64,000 nucleotides of DNA from Hexactinellida sp. DTS-2022 (taxonomy: Eukaryota > Porifera > Hexactinellida): contig JAPNXP010000013.1 in NCBI GenBank assembly GCA_028753945.1, positions 2,480,001 to 2,544,000 on the forward strand. The letters run 5' to 3'. A program made the position numbers and the translations under genes. Of the stretch, positions 3 to 57,849 are shown piece by piece (positions within the stretch are counted from its first letter, which is position 1; every line of letters starts with the position of its first letter). The notes under the pieces were generated by a model. That model was given only the letters and a program-made list of their open reading frames with translations, was not told the origin of the DNA and did not search any database.

Positions 3-1778
3 TTAAAGGCCTTGCAGCAAATGCTACATGAGGTTAACCCCTATGTCTCTCACTTCAAGCACGCAGTTGATCTAATGCGAGCACAAGGAGGAGTGGACAT
101 CAGGTTGATCATCAGAGCTGATGGTTGCCCAGACCCACGCCGATACAATGCTCCTTCTGCTCCTGAAATTGCAGTGCTGCTCCCAGGTGGAGGTTACTCT
201 GAGGGAGTTACAAACAGGGATATTGTACTGCATGCCCACAGTGGTGGTCTCAAAAGGATCACAGAAACACACTGTGCGTATGACTCGCTACATTATGTCT
301 TACTGTTTCCCCTAGGAAATGATGGCTGGCACCTTGGTATCCCTCATAGCAGAGGTAGACGCGATGTTACTGCACTGGAGTTCTATAGCTATCGCCTGAT
401 GCTCAGGGGCGGGCTTAACCACCTGCACCTCTCGGGAAGGCTATTCCACCAGTATATCGTTGACATGTACGCTAAGATTGAGCAGCAGCGGCTCAACTAC
501 ATTAAGCTCAATCAGCAGAAGATCCGAGTGGATCTGTATAGTGGATTGGCTGATGCTGTTGCCAAAGGAGACACTAATGCGACTGATTTGGGACGGAATA
601 TTATTCTACCCTCGAGCTATACCAACTCTCCGAGGCAAATGTTCCAACTTTACCAGGACGCAATGACAATAGTGCGGAAATTTGGTAAGCCAGATTTATT
701 CATTACATTTACATGTAATCCGCTTTGGGACGAAATAACGAGTAGTCTTTTGCCTAACCAGAAGGCTACTGATCGTCCCGATTTAATTGTTCGTGTTTTT
801 AAACAAAAGCTAAGGGAATTACTAGATGACATTCTTAAGAAACATGTTCTTGGTAAAACCGTTGCACACGTCTACACAATTGAATTTCAGAAGCGTGGTC
901 TTCCGCATGCTCATATATTGGTGATCTTAGCTGATGATTGCAAACCACGTGACCCTTCTGATTACGATAAGATTGTATGTGCTGAACTTCCTGATCCTGA
1001 TCTCAATCCGAGATTGCATCAAATTGTGAAGCGCTGTATGTTACATGGCCCATGTGGTACTGCAAAGAAGGCTGCTGTTTGTATGCGCAATGGTTCATGT
1101 GCTAAACAATACCCAAAGAAATTCTCTGACGTTACTACCACCACTAAGGATGGTTACCCATTGTATCGGCGCAGAGATAACTCCCGTACTGTAGAGGTAG
1201 CAGGCATGAAACTTGACAATCGCTGGGTTGTACCATATAACCCATACCTTTTGTTAAAGTATAATGCTCACATTAACGTTGAAATTTGCAGCACAGTTAG
1301 AGCAGTTAAGTACCTCTATAAGTATGTCTATAAAGGCCATGACCGAGCCATTATCGAGTTCCAGTCGGGTGATCACACTGATAAACCCCGGCAGGTAGAT
1401 GAAGTATCTAATTATGTGGAAGCTCGGTATATATCTGCATGTGAGGCTTGCTATAGAATATTTTCTTACGATCTCCATGCTAATCTGCCACATGTGATGA
1501 GGTTAGCTCTTCATCTTGAAAATCAGCAATCTGTCGTTTTTCGAGATGACGCTGATATTGAGGATGTGTTAAGTGTAGAAAAACATTCCACTCTAACAGG
1601 ATGGTTTCTAGCTAACCAAAAATTTCCATCTGCTCGGGCAATTTCTTACTTAGATTTTCTGAATATTTTGTATGGGATAAAACTAAGCGAGAATGGAAGC
1701 CGCGAGTTAAGGGGCACGGTAAGATGGTTGGCCGAGTGTTTTCTGCTCATCCAACTGAGGGAGAGCAGTTCTTCTTGA
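3..1778 (+). pseudogene. Helitron Rep (HUH endonuclease) part, 5' end outside window
   Basis: This reading frame is already open at the window edge, so the protein starts upstream; the first in-window ATG is at 21. It encodes the rolling-circle replication initiator half of a Helitron RepHel protein, which nicks and rejoins single-stranded DNA during transposition. The metal-binding His-x-His is in GLPHAHILVIL (codons at 906 and 912). The catalytic tyrosine motif is KYLYKYVYKG (tyrosine codons 1311-1331). Family members continue directly into a helicase; here the frame shifts near 1716-1724, so this frame ends at 1778 in an unrelated tail while the next frame carries the helicase. The break makes the element non-functional as read, unless it is a sequencing error. 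Confidence 0.93.
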
Positions 1779-3340
1779 GAATTCTGTTGAATCACGTCAC
1801 TGCCTGTACAAGCTTTGAGGCTATTCGTACTCTTCCTGACGGAACTGTTTGTGGTACCTTCAAGGAGGCCGCATGCCACCGCGGATTGCTGGAAGATGAT
1901 AGCGAATATGATATGTGTTTGGATATGGCTGCTTCGTGGCATATGCCTCCACAGTTACGTCATCTATTCGTTACCATTCTACTCTATAACGAACCATGTA
2001 ATCCTGCGGCTCTTTGGGAAAAGTATAAATTTGCTTTTTCTGATGACTTTCTGCATCGTGCTAGAAAATCTGTGCCCGATATCGAGGTCGATGAGCACAT
2101 ACTTAATGCTGTATTAGTGGATATTGATAAGCGTTTGCAAAACCAGGGTAAATCTCTAGCAGATTTCCCAGGGATGCCAATACCCATTCATACCAGAAGT
2201 CCATACGAGGAGGCTCTTCTAATTCAGAGAGAATTAGATTATAACGTTGATGAGCAGCTAGCAATAGTTGTTCATGATGTTCCTTCTCTTAATTCTGATC
2301 AGCTTAGTGTATTTACCTCTATAATAGCAGCGGTAAATGATCCTGAGCAGTATCCCAAAATATTCTTTGTAGATGGTCCCGGGGGCACAGGGAAGACATT
2401 CCTTTATAATATACTTTTGGCTCAAGTTCGCTCGAAGAGTCAAATTGCCCTTGGGTTAGCTAGCAGTGGCATAGCCGCTCTCCTCCTCGCAGGAGGGCGG
2501 ACTGTCCACTCTAGGTTGAAAGTTCCCATTGATATCAATGAGTTATCTGTATGTAACATTTCGAAACAGAGTGCTTTGGCACAGCTAATTAAGCGTACAA
2601 AACTTTTGGTATGGGATGAAGCGTGCATGTCAAATAAGCATGTAGCTGAGTGTGTTGATCGCAGTTTGAGGGATATTTGTTCCTGTGATCTCCCCTTTGG
2701 TGGCAAAGTAATGGTTTTTGGAGGCGACTTCCGCCAGATACCCCCAGTGGTTAAGCATGGGTCGAGAGCCGAAGTGGTCTCTTCCTGTCTGAACAGGTCA
2801 TATCTCTGGCGTTATGTTAAAGTAATGAAGCTAACTATAAATATGCGCCTCCAAACATTATTGTCACAAGATGCCCTCGAGGTCAGTAAATTTTCCAACT
2901 TTTTATTAAGAGTAGGAGAAGGCACTGAACCTGAGGATGAAAATCAAATGATTCACATAGATAACAAATTTGTAGTACCAGGTGATTCCATTACAGACTT
3001 GGTTACTTCAGTCTATGGTGATATAAATGTAAATTATGCTGATCGTGATTATGTAAGTCAAAAAATTATTCTGTGTCCTAAAAATGATACAGCTGATTTA
3101 ATAAACGATTACGTAATTCATCAGCTTCCTGGTGATGGTATAACTCTGTTGAGCGCAGATTCTGTAGAAGGTTCTGCTGCAGTAAATTTTCCAAATGAGT
3201 TTTTAAATTCCATCACTCCTAACGGTATGCCCCCTCATCGGCTATTCTTGAAATTGTTTGCGACTGTAATTCTATTGCGTAACCTTGATCCCGATGAGGG
3301 TCTTTGTAATGGTACTCGGTTGATTATTAGAGCATTCTAA
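1724..3340 (+). pseudogene. Helitron Pif1-like helicase, N-terminal and central part
   Basis: This is the SF1 (Pif1/RecD-like) helicase half of the Helitron RepHel protein, in a frame one step from the Rep frame. The first residues, around GRVFSAHPTEGEQFFLRILLN, are the linker typical of Helitrons just before the helicase. Walker A is GPGGTGKT at residues 218-225 (codons from 2375). Walker B is LLVWDEA near residue 297, followed by GGDFRQIPPV. An in-frame TAA at 3338-3340 interrupts the helicase and the same frame continues after it, so there are two lesions (frameshift plus stop) in an otherwise long open protein. This suggests fairly recent inactivation. Confidence 0.93.
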
Positions 3341-4636
3341 AACCGAGTAATTGACGCGGAGATCGCAACTGGTACAAACAAGCATAAGCGAGTGTTTATA
3401 CCACGAATTATATTGACTTCTTCTGAGTCTGAACTTCCATTTATTCTAAGAAGGAGGCAGTTTCCAATCCGCTTGGCCTATTGTATCACAATTAACAAAG
3501 GGCAAGGTCAGAGTTTGGATACCGTTGGTCTATATCTGCCATCCCCTGAAGCCATTTTTAGTCATGGCCAACTCTATGTTGCATTGAGTAGAGTTAAAAA
3601 TCCATTGGGACTAAAAATAATGGTATGTGGAACTGACAAATCAAAATCTGGGGAAGTTTGGATTAGAAATGTAGTCTATAGGGAAGTTTTTAAATCCTCT
3701 TCTAAAATTGAGCCCATAGAAGACATACATGAAATATGTTCTCTATTGAATGAAACATTCCCAAGTTCCCAATTGACAATGACTCCTTTGCCTGAGGCTA
3801 TTGCTCCTGCAAAGAGAGAGTCTGTCCCAAATATATCTGATGGCAAAGGTAAAATCATGAAACTTTTTGAGTTTAATGACAGTACTATTAGCCCATTGGA
3901 AGTTATAGACAAAATGGATATAGCTGAAAACACTGTATCACCATTATCAGATCGTGAATGTATATTTGATGCAATCATTCGAGATCCATTCGATTTGTCA
4001 GAGTATTTTCTCAATGGTACGGTGAATAATCTTACTATCCCAATGCGGCAGAAGTTTGCGCATTGTATTGGATTACACGCGATACTAATTTTACCTATCC
4101 GTGAGACTCGAAGTGCAGTAAGCAATTATTACACCTCACTTAAAGCACAACTGACAACATATTTTGGTCAGAATGTTTCAGTGTATAATGTTCAACCAGA
4201 TGGTAACTGTTTGTACCGTACCCTATCTCATATAATATTTGGCACTGAAAATTATTTCGAGATATTAAAGTACAATCTGATTAATACATTCATTACCAGT
4301 ACCCAGCATCATTACAATGTTATGCGCACATCTGGCATACACAGTGAGCAGGAATTGCATGAACATATTAACGCTATTTCTGCACCCAATGCTTGGGGTA
4401 CAAATGTTGAACTTAATATGTTAGCCGCCTTGGCTGGAATTGACATATTATCAGTTGACTGTACTCATGTCAACTCAATGAATTGGAACATTCTCCCTAA
4501 CTATTTACACAATAAGTTAGACACTCCTATTGAATGTGATCCGATTTTTAATGCACAGAAAGTCTGTATTTTACATCATAGACTTAGTAGCCGTCTAGAA
4601 GGAAATGAACATTTTGATTCCTTCTTTTTTGCTTAG
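3341..4636 (+). pseudogene. Helitron helicase C-terminus fused to an OTU cysteine protease domain
   Basis: This continues the helicase frame past the TAA at 3338. The first Met is at 3392. It holds the last helicase motifs ([19 protein letters not shown] and [11 protein letters not shown]). After a spacer of about 130 residues comes an OTU-type deubiquitinase-like domain: [13 protein letters not shown], with the catalytic-type Asp-Gly-Asn-Cys (Cys codon 4208-4210), and a C-terminal NEHFDS that is the likely His site (codon 4610). OTU domains cleave ubiquitin-type isopeptide bonds and are known passengers of some animal Helitrons. The last 281 bases recur at 6611-6891 as a truncated copy. The TAG at 4634-4636 ends the protein. 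Confidence 0.9.
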
Positions 4637-8117: not shown

Positions 8118-8330
8118 ATAATATTAATTAACATTTAGATAATTATAAGATTAGCATAATAATAATATATAATAATGAAATCAGTATAGTGTAATTTGCA
8201 TAATCTTAAGTTTTAGATTAGAGGGAATACTAATAGAGCATGATAAGGCTTCAACAGGTACATAATTTGTTTACATAAATTACTAACCAACTTCTATCTG
8301 TATTCAGCCAAAATCTCCTAAAGAACTAAC
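8118..8330. other. AT-rich spacer after the small gene
   Basis: No coding or repeat structure seen, apart from another T-rich tract ending in AG near 8309 that could be a further splice acceptor (GTATTCAG|CC). Confidence 0.4.
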
Positions 8331-9180
8331 ACAATCAACAGCACTCTCTACTAAGTTACTATCTACGGGGTACCGAGTCAACGAATAAACAATCAATAGC
8401 ACTCTCTACTAAGTTCCTATCTACGGGGTATCGAGTCAACCAATACACAATCAACAGCACTCTCTACTAAGTTCCTATCTACGGGGTATCGAGTCAACGA
8501 ATAAACAATCAACAGCACTCTCTACTAAGTTCCTATCTACGGGGTATCGAGTCAACCAATACACAATCAACAGCACTCTCTACTAAGTTCCTATCTACGG
8601 GGTACCGAGTCAACGAATAAACAATCAACAGCACTCTCTACTAAGTTCCTATCTACGGGGTATCGAGTCAACCAATACACAATCAACAGCACTCTCTACT
8701 AAGTTCCTATCTACGGGGTATCGAGTCAACGAATAAACAATCAACAGCACTCTCTACTAAGTTCCTATCTACGGGGTATCGAGTCAACCAATACACAATC
8801 AACAGCACTCTCTACTAAGTTCCTATCTACGGGATATCGAGTCAACGAATACACAATCAACAGCACTCTCTACTAAGTTACTATCTACGGGGTATCGAGT
8901 CAACGAATACACAATCAACAGCACTCTCTACTAAGTTACTATCTACGGGGTACCGAGTCAACGAATACACAATCAACAGCACTCTCTACTAAGTTCCTAT
9001 CTACGGGGTATCGAGTCAACAAATACAGAATCAACAGCACTCTCTACTAAGTTCCTATCTACGGGGTATCGAGTCAACGAATACACAATCAACAGCACTC
9101 TCTAAGGAGTTCCTATCTACGGGGTATCGAGTCAACGAATACACAATCAACAGCACTCTCTAAGGAGTTCCTATCTACTA
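8331..9180. repeat. 58-bp satellite array, 15 units, with 116-bp higher-order pattern
   Basis: The landmark GCACTCTCTA recurs at 8341, 8399, 8457 and every 58 bp to 9153. The last unit is cut off. Units 1-8 alternate strictly between ends CGAATAAAC and CCAATACAC, so the first half is really a 116-bp repeat. Units 9-14 are simple 58-bp copies with CGAATACAC or CAAATACAG. Units 14 and 15 read CTAAGGAG instead of CTACTAAG. The unit length is not a multiple of three, so it is not coding. Confidence 0.97.
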
Positions 9181-12828: not shown

Positions 12829-14780
12829 TTACACCCCTGAAAATACCCACTGTGTATCGACATCCTGTTTCAAAGTTATTAGAATCCGCCAAAGAGTGAC
12901 GATATAATCTAAGACTGGATCTGATGGCCACTTCAAAGAACACCGGTCCAAGATTTCAATAAGCTTGTGATTAATAGATTCCTCTGGATCGAATAACAGA
13001 TCTCTGTCAGTGGTTTGGAAATTTAAACAAAGTCGGCAATTCTGAAACTTGTGACTCTTGGAAAATTGATGGACACAGTAACCTGCAATAAAAGCCAAAG
13101 ATTGGATGGTTGGTTTCATTGTCAAGAATTACAGTAAATATATATTGTAACTTTGAAAGAAATGGATTTAGGTCGGTATGAGAATGATTGGCGGCTTCAT
13201 TGGAGGTGAATGATTTGAAATATTTTAATTTATATTCTTTACAAGGCTGTGTGAAAATAGCTTCAGGATGCTTGAGACTTTGAGTCGGCGTTCAGTTTCG
13301 AGAATCTGACTAAAGGAAACATGATAATTTGAGCGAGACATCATTCTATACAATCCGAAGTGGTGTTCTAGCGGATCTGTTTGTAAGACAGAAGTAAGTA
13401 CGTAGGAAAATCCACGTTTTGAAGTTAAATGGTTGACTAGAATCGGTAGCGCTTCACAAGTATGTTTGAAGGAAGAGAAAGTCTGTGGACTCAATTTGCC
13501 ATGTTTCCCGGGTAATGATCTCCAGGCAGTGAGCCAGTTCACAATGCAATTAATGAGCTCATATCTAGAATCATTAAAAACTAATTGTTTGGAATATTTC
13601 GTCATTCAAACGTTTGTCTTTGTTAGGCCGATTAACGTTAAACAATTTTCAGACCACAACGACGATATCGATGAATTCAGCGGTATGGTTTTTGAAACGT
13701 TCGAGGCGAGGTTCGTTGCAAATCTTGAGGGCTGCGCTGGGAGAGTCGTCGAAAATTCGGAGAGCTAATTTAACATTTTGGCGCTCTAACTTCGATGGCC
13801 AACATGCTTTGGCTGTGACGTCGGTGCAAGTTTCGCAATGCTGTTTGCTCTAACCTATAAATCTGATGAATATCAGTGAAGGAGGCAGTCTGTAGGTTTA
13901 GAGGATATCGAGTGTAGGTTGGCAAAAAATCTTCGAGCTTTGGGTAGATAAAAGTCCGATTATATTATCATTTTTCAAATTTAGCCAATTGTTACGAATT
14001 GTCTTTACTATATGTACAAAGTAAAACGTAAGAATAAGTGATTTGTTTGCACAAAGAGGATGAGGGACCAATGGTTGTTATGTTTTCTGATCCGAAGAGA
14101 ATACTTTAAAAAGATTTACATTTAGTGGATAGTTGTCTGTGAAAAAGACCTGAACTGAAAGTCCACAACGTTCAATGTCAACAATTACCTGCACAATGAT
14201 GGGATAAGAAAACCTAGCACTAGTTGTAGAGAGTGGGTGGAGCTAGCGTGGAAGTATCATTGGAATTTATGTCAAAAGATCCTGAGATACCCTCTTCAAG
14301 CTTAATAATAACTTTGTTAATGTATTTGCAAGCTTTCGTAGTGTGCAACTGGACAGAGTTGGAGAAAGAGAGAAATTTAGATTAATTCGAAATTTCACAG
14401 GTAGAAGTTCAATTTGTTATATGCCATTTATCGCAGTTAAGGATAGTTACAGGTTCTTCATCATGGTATGCTGTTACATTTAGAGTTGAATCGATAGTCA
14501 AAGAAGAACTAACTGAAATTTGGCGATGTGTTTTAGGAAGTGATATGAAATGTGCCATAAGGATTCGGTACTTTATATACACGTTCTACGTATTCTAACC
14601 GGAAGTGATTAAAACAAACGAATATATGTTTAAGGTCAGTTACGTTCTCTCGGTGAAGAGCTTTTATCCACTCTTGGCGTAATTCAGGGGCTTGGAAGGA
14701 AGTATAAACACTGGAACATAAGGATCTCTACTAGGGTAATAATTACTCGTACAATTCGGTGCAGAACACTTGTTCGGCAT
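12829..14780 (-). pseudogene. P-element / THAP9-like transposase, degenerate
   Basis: On the minus strand a THAP zinc finger starts at an ATG at 14780 with MPNKCSAPNC (C-x4-C). It is followed, after a frameshift, by APELRQEWIKALHRENV and FVCFNHF, the expected C2CH spacing. Towards the C-terminus, 13605-13225 is open for 126 codons and includes LTSKRGFSYVLTS, QTDPLEHHFGLYR and SQILETERRLKVSSILKLFS, the conserved C-terminal block of P-element and THAP9 transposases. 13125-12829 is a further open stretch with two Cys-x2-Cys-type cysteines (NCRLCLNFQ). P transposases are GTP-dependent RNase H-type enzymes. The middle, including most catalytic residues, is too decayed to read. Confidence 0.8.
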
Positions 14781-15726: not shown

Positions 15727-16570
15727 TTAGCAATAAATCTGAACATAGAGTTCAACAATTAATTGATTACACAAAATTTGTAACTTATAATACTGCCAGA
15801 TTTCTTCCTCTTTATGTGGTTGAGAAATTTTCGATTTCACTCCACGGAGATCTGCTGCTGAATTATGATGTAACAGCCAAGATTTAGCATATTCCAATGG
15901 TCTCCAAATACTTAATGGAGGACCATTAAGCTGGATAAACAGCAAAGAAGAAACATGTTCTATCGTAAGCCGGTTCCGTTTTTCATCCAAAATTAAAATC
16001 ATTTGACTACACCCTCTTTCACATTCAGATGAACTGCAAGGAATTACTTCTACGCAGTTTATTAATGGCCTTAAAGCAGAAGGAGTTCGAATACCGATGT
16101 TGTCATAATAATCACAGAATGCATCAACTAAGATTATCTCTGGTAAAACAAATCTTTTACATAACCTTTTTATCTCATTTTCTCCAAATCCAGGAGTATA
16201 TTCTAATGGCCAACTTTCTTTGTTTAAAATTTGGAGATCCTTCATCAGGGCTGAATCATTTGGATTAGTAATTCAAAATAACCGATCTTCCATAGATGTG
16301 ATTAAGGAGCATACAAATGTATCTTTATTGATATCTACAATTGCTTTATTGTGTTTAAATATAGTCTTATTAAACTGTAGTTCCTTTGCTGCGTATTCTG
16401 CCTAGAGCTATTTAGTGCCAGGATTGTTTTTCAAGCTTTCCAAACGTCTGACTGTCCTTTTAATCATTTGATCAGCATGCATTATTGAGGTAGCACGATG
16501 TTGTAATAACTCAGAAAGGGGTGAAAATTCATACAGAGTATCAAACATCAGGCCTAAATCAACTAGGAAT
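15727..16570 (-). pseudogene. hAT-type transposase C-terminus (dimerisation domain), degenerate
   Basis: The minus strand is open from 16245 to 15727 (172 codons). It reads IPCSSSECERGCSQMILI followed by RNRLTIEHVSSLLFIQLNGPP and a tail with SWLLHH, the hATC dimerisation pattern (S-E-C-E-R-G-F/C-S). It resembles the KIAA1586/ZNF862 type of hAT-derived proteins. Further upstream, around 16560-16420, LMFDTLYEFSPLSELLQHRA and IMHADQMIKRTVRRLESLK match the same protein group and show the relic is longer than the open frame. No terminal repeats were found. Confidence 0.7.
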
Positions 16571-20224: not shown

Positions 20225-22135
20225 ATAATAATAATAATAATGAATTTTAAAGCGCAGATTCAATACAAATATGTTCAAGTGCTCTGTACAATAGGTAATA
20301 CATGCGTATGTAGATTAGACAGTGAGTATGTCTGTGAAACTATTGTGTTTGTATGTATGCAATGTTAAAGAGGTAGTGTTTTAAGAAGGTTTTTGAATAC
20401 ATCGAGGGATTGAGATTGCCTAATCTTGGAGGGCAGGATATTCCATTCAGTGGGGGCGGCGAAGGAAAATGAACGGCTGCCGTGTGTCTTGGATAATCTG
20501 ATGGGAAGATGTTCAAGTAGGATAGCGTTGTTTGATCTTAGTGTTCGATGCGTTTGCTTGACCTTAATTAGCTCAGTGATGTAGTCAGGAGCCATATGGT
20601 GAATGGCTTTAAAAGTAATGATGAGGATTTTGAAGATGTTGCGGTACTTTACAGGCAGCCAGTGGAGTTCGAAGAGGAGGGGATAGGATGGTGTGAATCT
20701 GGATGTGTTGTGAATTAGTCTGGCTGCGCTATTTTGGACACGTTGGAGACGGGAAATGAGTGTAGAAGGGTGGCCATAGAGTAAGGAGTTGCAGTAGTCC
20801 AGACGTGATGTGACGAGTGCATTGACAAGCGTCTCACAGGAGTTGTGTGAAAGGTATTTTCGGATGCGTCGATGTTGTAGATATAGTAGAAGCAAGACGA
20901 GGCAATCTTGGTGACATGAGTAGACATTGATAACGTGTTGTCAAACCAAGAGCCGAGATTTTTCACTTCTTTGGACGGCGAGATTGAAGAGTTGCCTACG
21001 GAGATTGTGTTGATAGATGTTTTAGACAGTTGTTGGAGTGTTCCGATGATCTGGAACTCCGTTTTGGTGTCATTTATAAGAAGTTTGTTGTTGAGGAGCC
21101 AGAGGCGGACGTCTGAGATACAAGATTCTATGGCTTGGAGTGCCGAAAGCTCAGATGTTAGAGAGTTGGGTGTGAAGGATAGATAAAGCTGGGTGTCGTC
21201 AGCGTAGCAATGCATCTCAGGTAAATGCGATTTGATAAGATCAAATAGAGGACTTGTGTAGAGTGTGAATAGGAGTGGTCCAAGGCAGGATCCCTGAGGG
21301 ATTCCGTGTAGGACGGGTAGTGCAGGTGAGCTTTTCCCTTCTATATAGACAGATTGCGTTCTGTTGGAAAGGTAAGATTCGAACCAAGAGAGAGAAGAAC
21401 CACAGATGCCGAAATGCGATTGGAGACGAGTTAACAGGGTGGTGTGGTCGACTGTATCAAACGCAGAGCTTAGGTCTAGAAGGACAAGGAGTGTAAGATG
21501 TTGCTGGTTCATATTTAGTAGAATATCATTCTTTACTTTCAGGAGCGCAGTCTCGGTGCTATGATGTCTTCGGTATGCGGATTGAGTCTTGGGGAAGAGG
21601 TGGTGAGCTGTGATATGGTCAGCAACCTGTGTAGCAGCAGCTTTTTCAGTCAGCTTGCAGAGAAACGTAAGATTGCTGATAGGACGGTAGTTCGGGAGGA
21701 CAAGTTCGAGATTTGCTTTTTTCAGCTTAGGGTAGATGATGGCATGTTCCCAAGGTGATAGAACCGTTCCAGTGGAAAGGGATGTGTTGATGATTGTGTT
21801 CAGTATAGGACCGATAATGTCCACCGAAGATTTGATCAGATGGGTTGGGACGGGATCGCTGTTGCAGGTCTTATTTGGGGCAGTTACTATCATAAGTTTG
21901 GTATCGGCAACAGAGAGAGGTTGAAACTCAGAGAATAGATGGCGGGAGGTTGGCTCAGGATCAGAAGTTGAATTTTTAGAATGTGATATGATCGGGTTAG
22001 TAGTGGAGTCGATGGTATCCCTGATGTTGTTGATCTTCATTGCGAAGAATTTGGAGAATTCTTTTGAGAGAATAGTAGCATCTGAGTGAGGTGGTAGATC
22101 AAGCTTCTGCCGAATTCCAAGCAGGGCATTTGCCC
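20225..22135 (-). mobile_element. 5'-truncated CR1/L2-type LINE
   Basis: A 1.9-kb insertion on the minus strand. Its 3' end carries an (ATT)n tail (AATAATAATAATAATAAT on plus at about 20223-20241), typical of CR1/L2 elements. The 5' end is cut inside the ORF2 region, just before the reverse transcriptase. It is flanked by 122-bp direct repeats made from the host gene. That is far longer than the usual LINE duplication. Confidence 0.9.
20365..22120 (-). pseudogene. LINE reverse transcriptase (CR1/L2 type), one frameshift
   Basis: Encodes the enzyme that copies the element RNA at a nicked target. The long frame 22040-20715 has the fingers (PNYRPISNLTFLCKLTEK), the ALLD-type block LLVLLDLSSAFDTVDHTTLL, GIPQGSCLGPLLF and the catalytic HCYADDTQLYLSF (YADD, codons about 21192-21212). 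A shift near 20885 moves to the frame 20895-20365, with RLDYCNSLLYG, RLQRVQNSAARLI and LHWLPVKYRNIFKILI, the L2/CR1 C-terminal block. The N-terminal endonuclease is missing. The visible start lies in the linker before the polymerase (PPHSDATILSKEFSKFF). Confidence 0.92.
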
Positions 22136-22257
22136 TATTGACTTAACAATACGCATCCAATTCTCCACAATAGCGTTGCTAAATATGCTAGTCTTGTTCT
22201 TATCCGCTACACTAATAGATCCTAAGATTATTCCACTCCACAAAGGTAATATAGGTA
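22136..22257. repeat. 122-bp target duplication of the LINE, copy 2
   Basis: Partner of 20103-20224. On the minus strand it encodes FSNAIVENWMRIVK and upstream residues of the interrupted host gene, so the duplication lies within coding DNA. Confidence 0.93.
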
Positions 22258-35139: not shown

Positions 35140-36890
35140 ATGTCGAAGAAAATAAATTATGACGATTCTTATGTTCAGTTCGGCTTCGATTTCATAGTTT
35201 TGGATGGTTTTGAAAAACCTAAATGCATTTTTTGATCAAAAGTGTTAGGAAATGGGTCATTGAAACCGTCCATTTTGAGGCAGCACTTACAGTCAAGTCA
35301 TCCAAGTGATTCCAACTACAGTAATGAAGAATTCAGGGTCAAAAGAGCTCGGGTCCGTGCTGTAGGTACACTTGCGAAACACGGATTTCTCCCAGAACAT
35401 AAAGTAGCTCTGTAAGCGTCCTGCACGGTAGCTTTTAAAATTTCGAAAGCAAAAAAGGATCACACAATTGGTGAGACTCTAGTCAAACCGTGTGCATTCG
35501 AAATGGTGAGGTTGATGATTGGTGAGGAGGCTCGACACAAAATTCAACAGATTTCTTTGATTGTACAATGATATTTTTCGAAAACGAATAGGAGACATGT
35601 CCCTTCATATTAGGGAGCAAGTTGTTGCGAAAATTCGATCGAGTTCTTCAAGAATCAGTCTTCAACTGGATGAAATCCACTGATATTTCAAACTTTTCGC
35701 AGCTGTTAGTCTTCTCTCGTTATATTCATGAAGGAGATTTGAAGGAGGAATTTCTGATGTTTGAGTCCCTGGAGTCGACAACGAAAGCTATCGAAGTGTT
35801 TGAAAAGTTGGAGGGATTTTTTAACAAAACCAAATCACTTGGGATAATTTTGGATCATTGTGTAGAGATGGTGCCCAGCAATGATGGGAGTTAAAAGTGG
35901 ATTAACCACTTTAGTAAAGAAAAGAGCTCCTCATGTGATCTCTAACCAATGCGTACTTCATCGGCATGCATTGGCTTTTAAAACCCTTACAAAATACTTA
36001 AAGTATGTGTAGTCCAAAGTAGTTGAATGTGTCAACTATATCCGAAGTCGTGCTCTGAATCATCGTCTTTTCAAAAATTGTGTGACGAGATTGGTTCGCA
36101 TTATTCAGTGTTGTTGTACCACACTGAAGAGCGATGGCTTTCGCGAGGACTTATGCTTTCACGAATCTTTGATCTTCGAGTTGAGATGGGTATATTTTTT
36201 CGTGACAAAGGGTCATCTTTGTCAGAACATTTCGATAATTCTAAATTCATCACTGCAATGGCCTATTTGTCTGATATATTTGCATTGCTTAATCAGGTCA
36301 ACTTGGCAATGCAGGGCAACACCGTCACAATTCTAGAAGCTTCAGAAAAGTTGCAGGCATTCAAACCAAACTTGATCTATGGGCATCCCGGATTGAAAAG
36401 AAGAATTTTGCTACTTTTTCTGATCTGGATCGTATCTGTAGTCCAGATTGTTTTGTCTCGGCTGACCTCATTGAAGAAATAGCTGGCCATTTCCGTGCTC
36501 TCAAGAGTAGTTTTGATAATTATTTCTCGATCGGGATGATCTCCACGGGAGACAAAATTGAGTGAAGTAGACGATAATGATCCTGGGAAAGATGAACTGT
36601 TTGAAATGCAATCTTCAGCAGCTCTTCGGCACAGTTTTGAAGTGGAGACACCAGGAAAATTTTGGTGAAGCTTGATTGAAGCTCATCACTACTATCTCAG
36701 CGTGCATTAAATGTAATCTTACTCTTTGTAACCACGTATCTATGCGAATCAGGCTTTTCAGCTCTCGTCACTATGAAGACGAAAGCACGTTCTCGTTTGT
36801 TCCCCGAAGATGACATGCGAGTGTATCTATCCACAACATTACCAAGAATTCTGCTTTTGGTGAAGAGCAAACAATTTCAGGGCTCACACT
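35140..36890 (+). pseudogene. hAT transposase, ZBED5/SCAND3-like, multiply frameshifted
   Basis: The ATG at 35140 opens MSKKINYDDSYVQFGFDFI and DGFEKPKCIF, the start of a BED-type zinc finger. The other zinc ligands follow out of frame (LKPSILRQHLQSSHPS). Later pieces: the open frame at 35622-35894, with a DGAQ-like catalytic Asp region out of frame just after it, CVLHRHALA, and the open frame at 36027-36482 with ALNHRLFQKLCDE-like text, HTEERWLSRGLMLSRIFDLR and LASRIEKKNFATFSDLD (second frame). Then LCESGFSALVTMKTKARSR near 36740, the hATC dimerisation block. At least six frame changes, so it is dead. Confidence 0.88.
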
Positions 36891-38439
36891 AAAAGTTGTG
36901 ATTGGTTTATAGAAAAATAGTAATTTTATAGTTCTATAATTCACATATCATAGTCCTTTATGTGATAATTTGTTACATACTATATATGGCGCGCAATAAA
37001 CATTCGTAATTGAACATTTTGTCAGGAGAAAAACTTCGGGGGTAAATGGGCACTACTCACCTAGGACAAGGGGTAAATGGCTAAAAAAGGTTAAGAACCA
37101 CTGGTCTATCTCTACCTCACGGTCATACATTGGAGAAGCTATATTCTTATTTTGGTCTCGAGAATGATTTTTGTGCATATCTTATACAGGCTACTTCGTC
37201 CTTAACTCCTCAGGAACGGAATGTAATTATTCAAATGGATGAGATACATGTCAAATCGGAAAAATCTTACAAAGGTGGAAAGGTATATGGCCGGAACTTA
37301 AAACCTGAAGATCCAACGAGAAGTCTTCACAGTTATGTATCCAGTCTTCATAAAAAGTGGTCTTGTATTTCTCGTTTGCTGCCATGTGCATCTATCTCTC
37401 CGAAAAATATTTCCTATCATAAAATCTTGCATTATAGATATTGAGCATTGTGGTTAGAGCGTTCAAGTCATAGCAACTGATAACTACCCGTTGAACGTTA
37501 ATCTCTTTAAATTGTTTTCTCTCAATAATAAGCTGAGTAGCTGAAATTAAAGCATATATTGAAGAGTATTCGCGACAATTAGGTAATTCAGAAAGATTTT
37601 GAGAAAACATTTCACTATGCAAATCTCGCAAATTTTGCAGTTGATTATTGCCAATATCCTCTTAAAGTCATTCAGCTTGCTTCCAAGATATATGTCTTCT
37701 TAGTAACTCGAAAAGTCAAAGTTTAGTTAAACTAGCCCCCCCATCTTACCATGAATGGTTGTTTGCCTTCTCCTATAGAACGACAAAATGTCAAATTGGT
37801 TCTGAAGGTCGTTAACCAATTAACACTAGCTAATCTATGAATTCTAGACAAGTCTCGGTTACCTGAATATCCTAAGAATACTTCTGACTTCATATGTATC
37901 CTTCTTTCATCATGGAAAATATTCAACATCAATACCCCATTTAAAGGTATCCAGTAAACGATAGCCTCTCGAGCCCTTGACCGTTAATGATGAAATACTT
38001 TTCTACTTTTTTGGTATAGCATTTTGTTGTTAGATGCTTGGAAAGCGTTACCTGGGAAAATTGAATAAACAAACATTTACTAGTGTTAAGCAGCATGGAA
38101 TGCACCACCAGAAATCACTAACCATTTAATACAAATGGTTATAACTTCCTTTTTGCAAACAGACCCGCTTGAATATTATTTTGGACAATATGTTACAATA
38201 TCGTATTATGTCGGGGTCGAATTACATATATCTCATCTATAAATTCAAAAAGCCGAACATCATATCAAACTATCCACTGTTTTGAATATTTTTTCTCACC
38301 AATCGGCTTTTTTCTGTTGTAATTATTCTGTGGAAAATATTAGTTCTAATTGAAAGTGATGACAACCACCTGACTAAACTTGTAGAAGGTTCATCTAGAT
38401 TCTAGAGAGATTATTGTACAACTCACATTAATCTTCATA

Positions 38440-40527
38440 GGAGAAATTGGTGACGATGATGCTTGGAGATGCAATTGTGTTAGTTGCGATACTTGTAGGT
38501 GGAAGATCGTGCGCCAACTTATATTTCTCAGACAAGAAAGTCTCTGTTGAGTGTTTCTTTGCAGCAACAAAGATCCAGACCATCTTTCATTTTGGAGCAA
38601 TTAAGGGAGGTTGCTGTAATTGAAGATTCTAGTCCTGTAGTAATTGCAGCTTTATCATTGCAACTTTTAGCCAATGAAGTAGACAACCGTCAGGTATCCA
38701 ATGTTGCTAAAGAAATAGTAGCTAATGATGGATTCAGCAACCTAAAAGATGCATTGTTCCACTAGATAAAGCTTTATTCGTGCTCGATTAAGTTGGAGTG
38801 GGTAGAAGAATATACACACAACTTCGCTAAACATTGATCCCAGAAAATAAAATATCTCCTTCATATAACATAATAGCAGATGTAAGAATTATTTTGATCT
38901 CGCGGCCTTCTATACACTTGTATCCAGACCCAATCCATCCAATTGGTAAATACACTTCGTATTTCATTCAAGTTCAACCAACCTTGGCGAGAATATTATC
39001 TACTGTGAATCTTCCAGCAGCGAAGAATTCCCGTTAATATTAAGAATTGCTGATGGCCTAGATGGCTCTGATTGCCATAATATCTATAACCAGCAACACA
39101 CCAACACAAGCACAGATAATTTCATTCTATTTTGCTTTAAGCCAATATCCATCCATACAAAATCGAACACGGTTGTTTGGAGAAATATCTATCTCCATTC
39201 TCACTGAGATCCATTTTTCTTTGTGCTGCGAAGGAATGTAAAGATAATATCCAGAAATTTATGGAAGATATGCTCAATCCTGAAACAGCAAAGCTCGGAA
39301 CTGGTGCATCTCTCGATAGAAGTCTAGTTGTTGTCGATATCATTCGATCCATGTTCGACGGAAAGATGGCGGCAATCCTTTCTGATTCAAGAGGTACTAG
39401 TTTCCAAATGTGCACTGCAACACATAAATATTTGAAAGATAAAGTCTTGGTAGCTGATGGATTCCCCATCAACAGAACCATTACTGACGCTAGACAGTTG
39501 TTCTCAGATATTGAAGATATAGATTCCTTATTTGTACATCCAAGTACTGAGCGTTTCGGCTTGGCAGACACATCTATTTCTACCATTGACATAAATTCAG
39601 CATCTCCACCACACTCGTGAACTTGCGTCTTTCGGTTGTTTAATCTATTAATTTATCACCTCCATATCGAAAAGTTTTGCTGGTATCAACTTACCCCGCG
39701 ATCAACAGTCGATGAAATAAAAACAAACACTAATTCAAGAAAATACTGGTTTGAAAGTTGACAAACCAAACTCAAGTGATGGAACAAGGTCTATAAGAAA
39801 CGTTGGTCTGGTCGAAGAGCATTTTCTGACGAAACAAGTTTTTTAGAGTGTGTACTATCGGCTATTTCAAATCCCCATCGACCAGCATTATCAAAGATAC
39901 ATACTCAACTTGCTGCTATACTCAAAGTGTATAATCCCAGTAGAAAGTGGAGTTGTGCGGAACCTATCTATTGATTTTAGATTCATTTCCCAGGCCGAGT
40001 CTCACACCAACTCTACACAAATTATTAGCCCACTCTGAGGAATTGATTCGTGAATCTAACTCTGTATCAGAGGCGGCGCCAGGATTTTCAGGTAGGGGAG
40101 CTTTGGGGGGGCCAGGGAGGATTTTAGGGGGCCACACTGTACAACATTGTTATTCTAGGGGGGGGGGCAGCCTCAAAAAGGTGGGCCATGCCCCCCCCCC
40201 CCCCCCCCTGGTTCGGCCACTGCTCTGGATTTGGATTAAAGGAATTTTCCTAAGAAGAGACAGAGGCACGAACAAATTGGTGAGAATATATAGGGAATTT
40301 TGACTCGAAAAGATAGTTTCGAAACTAAAATTATGGACATATTTGTTAGATTAGCCTCCCAAAGTGATCCAGTTGCAGTAAGCTATCGGAGATGTTTAAT
40401 CTGTGAACGGTGTGGTCAGTCTGGACATTTATCAATATCAAAATGTAGTAGGGCCGATAATATTGCACAAACTTCGGAAATTGACACATATTTACACAAT
40501 GGCACGATAGGTGGAAATATCGAATAA
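38440..40527 (+). pseudogene. RAG1/Transib-like transposase relic with C-terminal zinc knuckle
   Basis: Reading plus-strand pieces in order. Open 38560-38763: AALSLQLLANEVDNRQVSNV. Then LDKALFVLD and GVGRRIYTQLR, IPENKISPSYNIIADVR. At 39028-39100 LRIADGLDGSD, the place of the first catalytic Asp of RAG1 (D600 in human, D-G-x-G-D), then DNFILFCFKPISIH. Open 39177-39620: AAKECKDNIQKFMEDM, TSFQMCTATHKYLKD (a Cys site like the RAG1 C-T-L-C), ISTIDINSASPPHS. Then RRAFSDETSFLECVLSAISN and LSKIHTQLAAILKVYN, and TLHKLLAHSEELIRES (RAG1 H-K-x-L-A-H). After a MITE comes FS-stop-EETEAR, the catalytic Glu block. The last frame 40300-40527 has IMDIFVRLASQSDP and C-x2-C-x3-GH-x5-C. The second catalytic Asp is not identifiable. 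Stops and frameshifts throughout; no RAG2-like gene or terminal repeats seen. Confidence 0.7.
40068..40222. mobile_element. hAT MITE, 155 bp, in the RAG1-like gene
   Basis: CTCTGTAT at 40060-40067 and CTCTGGAT at 40223-40230. Ends CAGAGGCGGCGCCAGG and, inverted, CAGTGGCCGAACCAGG. It includes long G and C runs. Removal joins RESN to SGFGLKEF in the host pseudogene. Confidence 0.88.
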
Positions 40528-42220
40528 TTGTGTACTTAAAATCTATCTGGAATTAGTTATAACGTATTCTCCAGAGTCGTAAACCTATAAGTAATGCGAA
40601 TTACAAAGCAACTCAAGTGATATCTCTATAACTTTGCTAATCATGGTAGACAACCACAAAATTCTAAAATATGATTTTTCAAGGTTTCATATTAGTAGTT
40701 TAGGAATTCAAGCATGCATTTCAACTCTATAGTAATTAGGCATGTTGTAAGTTATGAATAGGGAGTATTTTTAGAGCTCTTTCTAATGGTAAGATTATAA
40801 TTAACGTATCTTCTGAGTAATTTATGATATTCTCATTTCAAAACAAGATATAATTTCTCTATTTAGTATTGATAGCTTTACATGCTGAAACTGAAGCAAC
40901 TAATTTTGCCTGTTGTTGCCCGTTGTAAATTAAGAAGTATTTTAAAAAGTAATTGTATTTATAACATAATAAAACAATTCATAGGTTACCCGGAGTTAGC
41001 ACACAAAAACCTTAAATCTTTTTTTGTGAGGAGCTTAGAATTTTTAACCATTATTTTACCCAAATCTTATTAAATTTTATATTATGATTGATTATTAGAT
41101 TAGCTCTCAACGCTATTTCTACACGAAAGAACAACGAGGAAGCATATAACTTTTACATCTCTAATCTAGAGAAAAGTTGAAGTTTATATAGTGTTTACTT
41201 TTCGCACTACTGGAGTGACTATTCGGAATTTTCCTGAAATATTGAACATTCCAAAATACTGACTTGTCACTCGAGTATGTGTGAAATGTAAACATAGATC
41301 AAAAATCGAACTTCATCGCCCCTAACTAGATAGTTAGTTCTAACTTAATATGCATTAACATCGCATTGATAACTACCCAATTCTCTGGGAAAATCCTTTA
41401 TATAGTCAATTACGATCAATTTTCAATTAATATTGAATAATAATAGCACGTCATTTATTTCCAGATTCACATATTTGGCTGTAACTCCGTAAGTATATGA
41501 GTTAGAGAGTCAAACTTTGATTTGAATAATAGCTGATAGAATAGGCTGGTGGCGGGGATTCATGTAACAATATAAATTTTGGTTTTAAATTGCAGGTGAC
41601 CGGAGGCCTTAATCGTATCATCTGTCAGAGTGATCCAGGACGTTTACTGTAGAGAAAATAAGAAATTACCCCCTAACAAAGAAGAAATTAGTAAGCAAGA
41701 TATTATGGTTAATTCCCTTATCCTAGAAGAATAACTAAGATTTTACAAAATATTTCAGTTTTGTATCGAATATTAAATTTAGTCGAATTCCAATGACGTC
41801 ATAATTTGTCACCCTGAAGTCCTACATAATATCTGATCACACCAAAGTGTTTACCTGGGTCGATAACCTATATAGCAATAATACATTTCTTAGTCCTATC
41901 TCCCATATTAATTGGTATTTCCACCAAATTGCCATTTCGTGCCACTGTGATTTATTATTTAAACATTCTTTAGACAGTATTATTAGTTATATTTATTGTA
42001 TAGGCGTGTTTCTAGATAGCGTTAACAGGTTATTCTAAATAACAAATATTATCAAAACATAATATATTAAAAATATACAATTTTCGATAACGTAATATTA
42101 TGAAAATAGAAGCCGTACAGTATATTTGAAGGTTGGATTCGATTCGCAGGTATCGATAACCCATAGCTACTAATACATTATATAAATCTAAGATGCATAA
42201 ACCATATGCCAATTTAGACC
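40528..42220. other. No recognisable content
   Basis: AT-rich DNA after the RAG1-like relic. I looked for a kelch-type RAG2-like gene and for RSS-like ends and could not support either. Short open frames (40882-41073, 41847-42038) have no family features. Confidence 0.5.
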
Positions 42221-42224
42221 ACTG

Positions 42225-42405
42225 TGCCCGGAGGCTCTAAAACGGTGGCTAGACAGGGCCGGGGGAAAAAGGGTAGCTTCACAGGGCCGGGGGCTCTTAA
42301 ACGGTGGATACACGGGGGAGGGGTTCTAAACGGTAGCAATATAGGGGGCTGTAAATGGTAGCGTTACAGGGGGCAGGGAGATAAACGGTAGCTACAGGGG
42401 GTCGG
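42225..42405. repeat. Degenerate GC-rich minisatellite, about six units
   Basis: Units of roughly 28-38 bp of the form ACAGGGGGCCGGGGGCTCTAAACGGTAGCT with variation (AACGGTGGCT, AATGGTAGCG, AACGGTAGCT). Strongly G-rich on the plus strand against an AT-rich background. Confidence 0.85.
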
Positions 42406-43938: not shown

Positions 43939-46443
43939 TTAAAGTAATGTATGAATATTGAAAACTTCATCTTTGGTAAAAGAACAAAATTGGTTTAGTT
44001 TGTAAAATGAAGAATATCGGGATGTTTGCGCGAGGTGGATTGATAAAAGATTAGCTTTCATGTATTGTTCTAAGCAATTGCAATCACTCATATCAAATAG
44101 CTGTTTTAATGTTGCTATTTGACAAATTTCAACCAAATATTTGTATATAAGAGTTTCAGCTGAGCTAATATGATTATGAAAAAAGTCAAAATTTGCTGCA
44201 GAAGATAAATATGTGAAATTGAATTTATCTAGTTCAAGTTTAGTTCTTATAAGTAATCCAACTAGAAGCTGTTTGTGCTGTTCAAGCGTTGAACGCTCGT
44301 AAACAGAGGAATCATTGTTAAAAAGAGAGATAGATTCATTAGATTCAAGAATATTGGAAATAACCATGACAATCTTTACTAAGAGAACAATTATATTCAG
44401 ATCACATCGTGAAATAGATTTATTGCAAATAATATAATTTGAGGAATTTCCAAAGTTTGAAAAAAATAATGGGTGTGTTATGAAATTAATGGTATCAAAT
44501 ATATAACGGCATAATAGAATAGTTCTAGAATATTCCTCGATTAACCCAAGTTCATAACCCACCTCGGAAAGAAAATGAGTACATGGAGATGCCGATTGCG
44601 AAGTTGAATCAATTGGCAGTAGATCTTTCAATATAACTTTTTCGCTTCCAACGAAATTATTAGAATCTGAATGGATTAAGTATTCAGGATTGTGAGGTAT
44701 ATGATAATTATGGTAACAAGACAAAGTAGAATAAACAGAGTAATTATCAAAAGGCAAAATTTCCAAATCAGGGATAGTGGAACACGATGGTTCGTATGGG
44801 CAATTCAAGGCTTTAAGTTCAAGTGGTATATGATCGAAGTCGAATAGTTGCTTAGTCATTTCGCTTCTTGTATTAAAAAACATAGTATGAAGAGGATATG
44901 AATGACATTGCAAATTATTGCTACCCAGATAAGTATTTTCCTGAGGAAATTTCCAATTCTTCGGATTATTAGAAAGATTAAGTTTTCTACCTTCAAGCTC
45001 AGAATGGTCATTGTTAATCGTTAAATCATCGGATTGTTCAATTATGCTTATTTCAAAAATATTACTTTCATTAGGTGGAAAAGAAATAGAGGTTTTACAT
45101 ACATTATCATTTAGAGGAATTAGTGTATCAGGAATAAAGGATTTTGGTTTTTCGTCATTCTGGTAACTATGAGGTGCTAGACTTGAAAATGGAACATAAT
45201 CAACGGCAGATAAACTGGACTGTAGATTTTTTTCAAATGAATTGAGATTACATGGTGGTGGACATCGAATTCTACCATCAGATAAACAGTTGGGTAGAAG
45301 TACAAATCCCGTTAAAGAGGATTTGGTTTCAGTCTTTTGAAATGATACAGACCTGTGTTTCTTTAACCAAACAGAAAATTGTGTAGAAGAGTCGATGTTT
45401 TCATGTGGCGTAGCGAACATCAAATTACATTCGGGTAAATTTGTGTCAGAACAAGCTCTGGAAGTTGAATACACACTATCCGAGGAATATAAAAAGTGTT
45501 TCCCTGCGTTTTCTATAGTAATATTATCATCTAAGTTGTTTGTATTATTTTTGGTAGTACTGTTCTCAAAATTTCCTAACAATTCAAGTGGTTGAAAGAA
45601 GGGATGATTTGAAAACTCATTATATCCCAAACGCAGATTTGAATCTCTTTTCAGAAGAGCAAGAATAAGACTATTCAGTTGGGGAGATGCTTGAATGGGT
45701 AAGTTAGGTTGAAGTTTTAGATCTATTTCGTATCTCTTTCTTAATAGCTGGGGAGTTTTGGCAATAAAAGGTGCAAATCCAGTAAAGCATTGATAAATTA
45801 TTGTTCCTAGACTCCACATATCTACTTTAGAGTCATAGCTCTGACCCAATAGCACCTCTGGTGCCATATAAAGTGGTGATCCGCAGAGAGTTGTTGCCAT
45901 TGCTGTATCAGACAGGACCCTGGCAAATCCAAAATCTCCAATCTTTGCGGTCAAGTTAATATACTTCAAAGTTGAAATTGTAAAAATTGAATTATCTGAC
46001 AATTCAACATGTGGATTTTTAGAGTGAAGTAGAATATTTTGTGGTTTGAGATCACGATGGATAATTTGAAGGGAATGAAGAAATGAAATAGCTGATCCTA
46101 CTTGCCGAAATATCAACCGTATATGATCCTCGGAAATTTTATTAAGCCTAAGGAGTAAATCATTCAGATCACCCAAATTACAAAATTCCAAAACTAAAAA
46201 AATATCAGAAACAGTCTCTTCAAAGTCAAGCATGCTAACAATGTTTTCATGCTTAAGACCATTCAAAATTGCAATCTCCTTCCTTTCTTTACTTTGTAGA
46301 GAAGAGAATGAACTCTTACGAATTTTCTTTATTGCAACAGGTTCATTTTTCAAATCACGATTATATCCTTTATAAACTAGTGCGAAAGCACCATGTCCTA
46401 ATATATCTGAGTAGGAGAATATATAGTTACCAACTGAATGCAT
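43939..46443 (-). CDS. ULK: ULK1/2-type autophagy-initiating Ser/Thr kinase (unc-51/ATG1)
   Basis: One uninterrupted 834-codon frame from the ATG at 46443; human ULK1 is about 1,050 residues. The kinase domain is residues 8-288: Gly-rich loop GHGAFALVYKG, VAIKKI with Lys39, HRDLKPQN with Asp131, DFGFAR with Asp170, TLCGSPLYMAPEV, and YQCFTGFAPF. About 11 extra residues lie between the catalytic loop and DFG compared with ULK1. The middle is low-complexity and Ser/Asn-rich; GFVLLPN near residue 379 sits where ULK1 has its LC3-interacting F-V-x-x motif. The last 190 residues are helix-like (EVGYELGLIEEYSRTILL, LVGLLIRTKLELDKFNF), as expected for the MIT-type ATG13-binding domain. ULK phosphorylates autophagy proteins at the phagophore initiation site. 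The complete frame and conserved active site suggest a working gene. No intron is present, which is unusual for an animal ULK gene. Confidence 0.95.
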   Translation of the reverse strand: MHSVGNYIFSYSDILGHGAFALVYKGYNRDLKNEPVAIKKIRKSSFSSLQSKERKEIAILNGLKHENIVSMLDFEETVSDIFLVLEFCNLGDLNDLLLRLNKISEDHIRLIFRQVGSAISFLHSLQIIHRDLKPQNILLHSKNPHVELSDNSIFTISTLKYINLTAKIGDFGFARVLSDTAMATTLCGSPLYMAPEVLLGQSYDSKVDMWSLGTIIYQCFTGFAPFIAKTPQLLRKRYEIDLKLQPNLPIQASPQLNSLILALLKRDSNLRLGYNEFSNHPFFQPLELLGNFENSTTKNNTNNLDDNITIENAGKHFLYSSDSVYSTSRACSDTNLPECNLMFATPHENIDSSTQFSVWLKKHRSVSFQKTETKSSLTGFVLLPNCLSDGRIRCPPPCNLNSFEKNLQSSLSAVDYVPFSSLAPHSYQNDEKPKSFIPDTLIPLNDNVCKTSISFPPNESNIFEISIIEQSDDLTINNDHSELEGRKLNLSNNPKNWKFPQENTYLGSNNLQCHSYPLHTMFFNTRSEMTKQLFDFDHIPLELKALNCPYEPSCSTIPDLEILPFDNYSVYSTLSCYHNYHIPHNPEYLIHSDSNNFVGSEKVILKDLLPIDSTSQSASPCTHFLSEVGYELGLIEEYSRTILLCRYIFDTINFITHPLFFSNFGNSSNYIICNKSISRCDLNIIVLLVKIVMVISNILESNESISLFNNDSSVYERSTLEQHKQLLVGLLIRTKLELDKFNFTYLSSAANFDFFHNHISSAETLIYKYLVEICQIATLKQLFDMSDCNCLEQYMKANLLSIHLAQTSRYSSFYKLNQFCSFTKDEVFNIHTLL

Positions 46444-46820
46444 CAAAAAGCTATTAATTAAAATATTCTATACAAGAAATTCTAAAAATTGTAATAAAAT
46501 TTACCATGGATTGATGTATGTATTTCGTTAACTTCATAACAGGTATTCGGGTAGAATGCTAATGCATATTTACTACTTCGTCTTTTAAGGCATTAAGGCA
46601 TTTTAAATAATGGAGTTTATTTCGTTTTATTAGTTATAATACTCGGAAGGAAAATATAGGAAAATTTGGCTTAATTCTGAGCACAATTGAACTCACTAGG
46701 GCTAAGTGAAATTGGGTAATGTCTGTTATATGGCTAAATTCAGAGCACTATAAATTACGGCCGCACTATGCTCGTCAGATAATTTGAGATTAGATTGTTT
46801 TTAGATAGAACCCTATAATG
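46444..46820. other. Upstream region of the ULK gene
   Basis: AT-rich, no coding. On the minus strand a T-rich stretch ending in TTAATTAATAG lies 7 bases before the ATG and could be a splice acceptor for a noncoding first exon. Confidence 0.3.
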
Positions 46821-57129: not shown

Positions 57130-57849
57130 TCAAACCCTCTCGGGGCTATAACACAAACTGCCACCAGTCTTGTCCACTGATCTCCATCTGCTCTTCCATA
57201 TTCCAAAGGTACATTCAATTGTCATTCGAGTCTTCAGGAAAGCACGGTTATACATTCTTTCGCGAGGTGTAACAGGAGATAGCAATGGAGTCAATAAATT
57301 TTGGCGTAATGGATAACCACTATCGCCGATAAACCAACCATCAATAATTTGAATTTCTTTATTGGTGATCTTCTGATTGATTCCTGATTGCCTCCATATG
57401 AACTTGTCATGTGTGCTACCTGGCCACTTCACAACTACACCAATAAACTTGAAAACATCATCACATATCGCTTGGACGTTAATTGAATGATAACTTTGAT
57501 TGGTTAACATAAATTGCTTCGTTGGTGGTAGGTGCAACAATTGGGATGTGTGAGCCATCAATACAACCTAATACTTTAGGAAACCCGAACTTTTCCATAA
57601 ATCCATGCTGCATACTCATCTGTCTAGCAGGAGTTGGAAACTGTATATACTCTTTCGCAATTGAGCACAATGCATCTGTTACACATCTAACACAGTTTGA
57701 CACAGATGGCTGGGAAATTCCATGAGCTGATGCAACCACAGTTTGAAAACTACCCGTAGCTAGTAACTGAAGAGTGCCGCTAATTGAGTTGTCACTGAAA
57801 TTGAATGAGATCGGCTTGTAGATCATGGCCGAATCATGGGTCTCTGGGA

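Follow-up and report, generated by a model that had tools for sequence, protein, structure and literature searches.

A probable Transib-superfamily relic with RAG1-like features and its multi-copy family in a glass sponge genome

The window analysed here is a whole 64,000-nucleotide stretch of the genome of the glass sponge Hexactinellida sp. DTS-2022 (contig JAPNXP010000013.1, positions 2,480,001 to 2,544,000), and its subject is a transposase relic on the forward strand. With a probability of about 0.86, the relic is a dead, frameshifted copy of a Transib-superfamily element, a cut-and-paste DNA transposon from the branch with RAG1-like features (Subgroup I). As a locus it is ordinary; as a family it is interesting. 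Tentatively, and at somewhat less than even odds, glass sponges may be home to an ancient Transib lineage that has multiplied recently and branches near the Transib/RAG1L split, in which an exact recombination signal sequence (RSS) heptamer, an end asymmetry of one helical turn (10-11/20), a domain resembling the nonamer-binding domain (NBD) and a RAG1L zinc tail are found in an element free of RAG2.

The relic and its inserts

P0001 (712 residues) and P0002 (723 residues) are intact sister transposases from the same genome. When P0001 was used as the tblastn query, the window gave seven collinear pieces between 38538 and 40524 with 54-85% identity; five of them were linked at E 4.3e-143, a tail piece scored 1.8e-19 and a short S-E-E piece 0.08. 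The 5'-truncated, frameshifted part of the gene occupies 38526-40067 and corresponds to P0001 residues 97-165 (38538-38744), 170-254 (38756-39010), 259-318 (39022-39201), 318-573 (39192-39962) and 581-614 (39962-40063). The rest of the transposase, comprising the S-stop-E-E and C-terminal pieces, lies at 40223-40494 and is supported by tblastn and by DNA homology to L028, L029 and L033 (L009-L029 and L033 denote family copies elsewhere in the genome). A 3' non-coding part at 41955-42226, likewise on the forward strand, is homologous to L029 up to the terminal inverted repeat (TIR) of that copy and ends in the relic's own 3' TIR at 42226 (CACAGTGGTCTAAATTGGCATATGG read inward). Alignments to both L028 and L029 start at 38526, and because L028 runs 0.9 kb beyond the matching point to reach its TIR, the 5' end of the relic is missing, with the loss of its 5' TIR and some 95 codons. 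The Kimura distance between the relic DNA and three close copies is 0.090-0.105 over the aligned pieces.

The first-pass annotation had recognised catalytic blocks in the order of the RAG1 core, and these lie where it placed them, in RAG1/Transib order, as confirmed by direct reading, six-frame translation and tblastn. ADGLDGS (39049-39069), the region of the first catalytic Asp, aligns with KWGFDGAS of HzTransib and DGADGMGD of BbRAG1L. FQMCTAT (39402-39422) contains the remaining Cys of a C-x2-C zinc pair, the first Cys having gone from the relic (S-F-Q-M-C versus S-C-Q-M-C in P0001), and the second Asp block, MFDGKM, is closely upstream in the same frame. HKLLAH follows at 40016-40033. The S-x-E-E-x-E-A-R block is present at 40248-40271, but its first x is a stop codon (S-stop-E-E-T-E-A-R). 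The C-x2-C-x3-G-H-x5-C tail, which had been likened to the CCHC tail of ProtoRAG, is found in the C-terminal piece at 40402-40446. The proposed extent, 38440-40527, needs revision at both ends: homology starts only at 38526, so 38440-38525 is not shown to be part of the relic, and 40495-40527 already belongs to a nested element, whose first bases these are. The relic is therefore broken at 40494, continues past that element and ends only at the TIR at 42226. Searched in isolation against Pfam and PDB, the relic pieces gave no match of useful significance; the family became recognisable because intact sister copies were searched, single pieces being uninformative.

Two nested inserts interrupt the relic. 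A 155-bp insert with G/C runs (40068-40222; CAGAGGCGG...CGGCCACTG), located by sequence reading and by the gap between tblastn pieces, separates HKLLAH from the S-E-E block and has a near 8-bp duplication, ctctgtat/ctctggat (7/8); it is a putative non-autonomous hAT-like element. A non-autonomous Transib-type element of 1455 bp (40495-41949), with ends CACAATGGCACG and CACAGTGGCACG and an exact duplication of ATTTA at 40490-40494 and 41950-41954, interrupts the relic 3' of the zinc tail. Two more full-length genomic copies of it are 96 and 94% identical, and L013 has ends of the same kind.

Family copies and element ends

The genome (112.4 Mb in 18 contigs) was searched with the longest relic piece (39141-39620), and 150 of 320 candidates were scored as matches, with E values from 1.4e-103 to 4e-16; some of the 150 are two pieces of a single copy. 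Fourteen matches lie in open frames of at least 650 residues with no stop within the match. Intact copies, which the first-pass annotation had proposed to seek, thus exist, and the relic is not solitary. The intact sisters measure about 3.0-3.3 kb and have a single unspliced gene encoding a transposase of 708-743 residues. Several copies are nearly identical (L015/L016, 99.84%; L016/L018, 99.25%; L012/L014, 98.97%), and since they sit in different places with different target duplications, the family has moved recently. Exactly one open reading frame of at least 100 residues, the transposase, was found in 10/10 bounded elements, shortened in L023 and L024, a count that left out the longer L014, L015, L017 and L025; these bounded elements therefore have no RAG2L inside. 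Against the genome as a whole, the RAG2 profile PF03089 gave no match, with no positive control responding, and PF13341 (RAG2 PHD) had a single match, below threshold (E 0.8).

Of 73 related proteins, 15 are named, and every one of these comes from the glass sponge Oopsacas minuta, in keeping with a hexactinellid host. One family copy, L013, is 82% identical between this genome and Oopsacas. This suggested conservation and hence domestication of L013, a candidate that we rejected, as both TIRs and a 4/5 duplication speak otherwise.

Paired TIRs with an exact 5-bp target duplication bound 14 of the 20 fetched loci, and all of these ends are CACAGTGG except one in L023 (CACATTGG). L026 has both TIRs and no exact duplication, only one end was found in L020, L022, L027 and L028, and the window relic keeps only its 3' end. 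In shuffled flanks, a 10/14 match with an exact duplication arose in 7/200 tries, against 14/20 for the real loci. L027 was considered as a fifteenth end pair and rejected: it has a 9/14 match, CACTTTT ends and a 7.7-kb span, and shuffles reached at least 9 in 20/200.

Inward of the heptamer is a second block, approximately GGAAATAGG, which begins 10-11 bp past the heptamer at the 5' end of the gene in 10/14 elements and 20-21 bp past it at the 3' end in 11/14, counts in which the near-copies L012/L014 and L015/L016/L018 enter some events twice. When near-copies were removed and the nested window element was included (13 elements), agreement of the two ends was 0.63 at offset 9, 0.39 at offset 10 and 0.18-0.37 at the other 23 offsets. 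We rely on this fixed-offset profile, the stretch for which was picked after the ends had been seen, because ties in per-element offsets were resolved towards 9. As exceptions to the asymmetry, L009 and L024 deviate, and L019 and L023 are no better than their own shuffles.

One further end of the same kind occurs in the window at 12847-12854 on the reverse strand, ending at 12854, with CACAGTG, a 21-bp interval and GGAAATAGG; it resembles an end in L025 at 222, and no partner end was found within the window. A diverged repeat (66-77% identity in pieces) is located ahead of the relic (37552-38296) and also ahead of L009 (7534-8466), outside the L009 TIRs.

Protein homology and placement of the family

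The Pfam RAG1 family PF12940 matched P0001 below the cut-off (E 2e-4) and P0002 above it (E 1.7e-9). In phmmer searches with P0001 and P0002, respectively, HzTransib scored 4.9e-26 and 4.9e-22, amphioxus RAG1L 1.5e-10 and 5.4e-11, and the best vertebrate RAG1 1e-5 and 1.2e-7. A 13-row profile gave 8.6e-83 for HzTransib, 8e-26 for amphioxus RAG1L and 2.5e-22 for vertebrate RAG1, the last match beginning in the nonamer-binding region; the profile combines 12 family rows with one HzTransib-type row (P0075), which raises the HzTransib score, although the single-sequence searches rank the proteins alike. PF12940 was matched by 10 of the 13 profile rows, with no other Pfam family at E 0.001. Of the 68 matches to PF12940 in the genome (best E 1.5e-6), all but one fall within the C-terminal part of that profile; no canonical, stronger RAG1L was evident among these matches, which were not individually examined. 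In the modelled fold, the DDE core and NBD resemble RAG1, and HzTransib is also matched.

That the protein belongs to another DDE superfamily (P element, hAT or Chapaev), its RAG1 likeness being a matter of motifs alone, has a close to negligible probability, for it is contradicted by the paired ends and duplications, the profile search and the modelled fold. Profile and sequence searches did not yield a transposase family without RAG1/Transib similarity, the outcome that the first-pass annotation had named as telling against its RAG1-like call. An ordinary HzTransib-type (Subgroup II) Transib would account for HzTransib being the top PDB match by sequence, for the single gene and for the 5-bp duplications. 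Identity to HzTransib-type Transibs is only 22-25%, however, and the family forms a separate clade with 100/99 support in an unrooted tree. The zinc-domain interval is 65-67 residues in 27/27 family rows, against 28-32 in HzTransib-type rows; the alpha11-12 region of the zinc domain is recognised here by interval length alone. The CCHC tail is present in 20/36 scorable family rows, versus 0/100 HzTransib-type rows. We consider a Subgroup II origin very unlikely.

Scorable rows (36 family, 100 HzTransib-type and 40 RAG1L) are those with the Glu block found and at least 45 residues beyond it; vertebrate RAG1 is counted among the 40 RAG1L rows, and some of the family rows are unnamed ENA and Logan sequences assigned by similarity. 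In the 20 tailed rows the last Cys follows x5 in 16, as in the relic, and x4 in four (scored by match lengths of 16 and 15, which include one extra residue class). L013, L017, L019, L020, L021 and L026 form a branch without the CCHC tail, and in this branch L017, L019 and L021 are still bounded by CACAGTGG at both ends, each pair with an exact duplication, apparently the result of a single tail loss with mobility kept. The precomputed Pfam label PF26100 is common to the family, some HzTransib-type Transibs and RAG1L, and seems to mark a common core; RAG1L rows usually add PF26024, PF26025, PF26101, PF26104 or PF26105.

The family could instead be a true RAG1L lineage of ProtoRAG type that lost RAG2L, its single-gene, Transib-like state being secondary. 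Several observations favour such a loss: the zinc interval, the CCHC tail and the asymmetric ends are shared with RAG1L, the tree is unrooted, and Martin et al. 2020 (PMC7204232) suggest that Transib could arise when RAG2L is lost. We nevertheless judge it unlikely. By sequence the family is nearest HzTransib and not RAG1L, and the RAG1L and RAG1 proteins (17 rows) form their own 100/100 branch with no family row inside. Tao et al. 2022 (PMC9435367) describe the same characters from Subgroup I as well as bacterial Transibs and interpret them as ancestral. No RING domain was matched in P0001, P0002 or the 13 profile rows by Pfam at the thresholds used; the family proteins start about 100 residues ahead of the NBD-like domain and do not show the N-terminal RING/non-core region of RAG1L. 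For rooting with bacterial Transibs, scans of genome contigs gave 27 and 75 pattern matches with none confirmed, and viral contigs gave 52 with none confirmed. We retain the Subgroup I Transib placement: the RAG1-like call stands in so far as this is a dead, non-vertebrate copy with a RAG1-type catalytic core and a CCHC tail like that of ProtoRAG, but not as a relic of RAG1L or ProtoRAG, since the family is single-gene, is nearest HzTransib and has a clade of its own outside RAG1L and RAG1.

Window context, mechanism and known systems

Elsewhere in the window are Helitron remains at 3-4633 (+), where PF14214 matches 3-1775 (E 4e-64) and 3341-4633 encodes an OTU protease domain (E 2e-6); a tandem repeat at 8329-9178 (58-bp unit, 14.7 copies, 95% matches); a hAT C-terminal dimerisation piece at 15730-16272 (-) (PF05699, E 2.6e-5); and a reverse transcriptase frame at 20718-22142 (-) (PF00078, E 4e-30). 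A 151-residue frame at 36027-36479 (+) is hAT transposase-like by eye and had no Pfam match. The 842-residue protein kinase frame at 43942-46467 (-) (PF00069, E 1.5e-63) is likely a host gene, and a DDE_Tnp_4 transposase piece lies at 57133-57567 (-) (PF13359, E 5.5e-25).

If it works as its homologues HzTransib and RAG do, the transposase would pair both ends and nick beside the CAC of the CACAGTG heptamer, leaving hairpins on the flanking DNA, and the excised element would be joined into a target with a 5-bp stagger. The second block may be bound by the NBD-like domain, the CCHC tail or both, and the one-turn asymmetry could favour the pairing of unlike ends, as in the 12/23 rule; some copies may still be active. 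If the lineage lies near the Transib/RAG1L split, signals with RSS-like logic and a protein scaffold able to read them would have been united before RAG2 joined, at the base of the animals. The family bears on the order in which the RAG parts (heptamer, asymmetric ends, tail, NBD and RAG2) were acquired. As a single-gene, multi-copy and recently mobile family, probably of sponge origin, it offers transposases with matched ends for testing RAG2-free 12/23-like pairing, and its tail-less branch with paired ends is a natural comparison for zinc tail function.

Among the papers found by open-access literature searches, no title or abstract opening reported a sponge Transib or RAG1L, Repbase and supplements being outside this search, and the main texts of the papers describing the genomes of Oopsacas minuta and Aphrocallistes vastus contain neither "Transib" nor "RAG". 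Tao et al. 2022 name Subgroup I members from ctenophores and Hydra, and their text names no sponge host. By described characters, the family appears to match Subgroup I Transibs: a single transposase gene, a CTT1-type CCHC tail, a long zinc interval (alpha11-12 region), an NBD equivalent and asymmetric ends. The Subgroup I CTT1 tail is approximately Cx2Cx3GHx4C, whereas here x5 mostly precedes the last Cys. HzTransib (6pqn, 6pqx; Subgroup II) shares the DDE core, the single gene and the 5-bp duplications; its relatives differ in the short zinc interval and lack of a CCHC tail, and its ends are symmetric, as are those of most Transib families according to PMC8289069.

ProtoRAG, with BbRAG1L (6b40), and other RAGL elements resemble the family in the fold of the core, in the zinc interval, in a CCHC tail of the form Cx2Cx3GHx4C, which here mostly has x5, and in having asymmetric ends and 5-bp duplications, but ProtoRAG contains RAG2L, belongs to a separate clade and has a CACTATG heptamer with the second block 27 or 31 bp away (PMC8289069), in contrast to CACAGTG and 10-11/20 here. 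AanRAGL of Aureococcus, whose first element, 13 bp long, is followed by spacers of 4/13 bp (Tao et al. 2022), shares the 9-bp difference between the two end spacers, which here are 10-11/20 counted from the heptamer, and differs in its CACACCC heptamer and in carrying RAG2L. Vertebrate RAG1 shares the core and NBD fold, and the RSS consensus (CACAGTG and ACAAAAACC, 12 or 23 bp apart; PMC8289069) shares the heptamer and a spacer difference of about one turn. RAG1 is a host gene acting with RAG2, unlike the mobile element described here, in which the second block is not ACAAAAACC and the spacers are 10-11/20 rather than 12/23. The family has the exact RSS heptamer, for which we claim no uniqueness among Transibs, and its spacer difference of 9-10 bp is nearer to the 12/23 RSS and AanRAGL than to the 27/31 of ProtoRAG.
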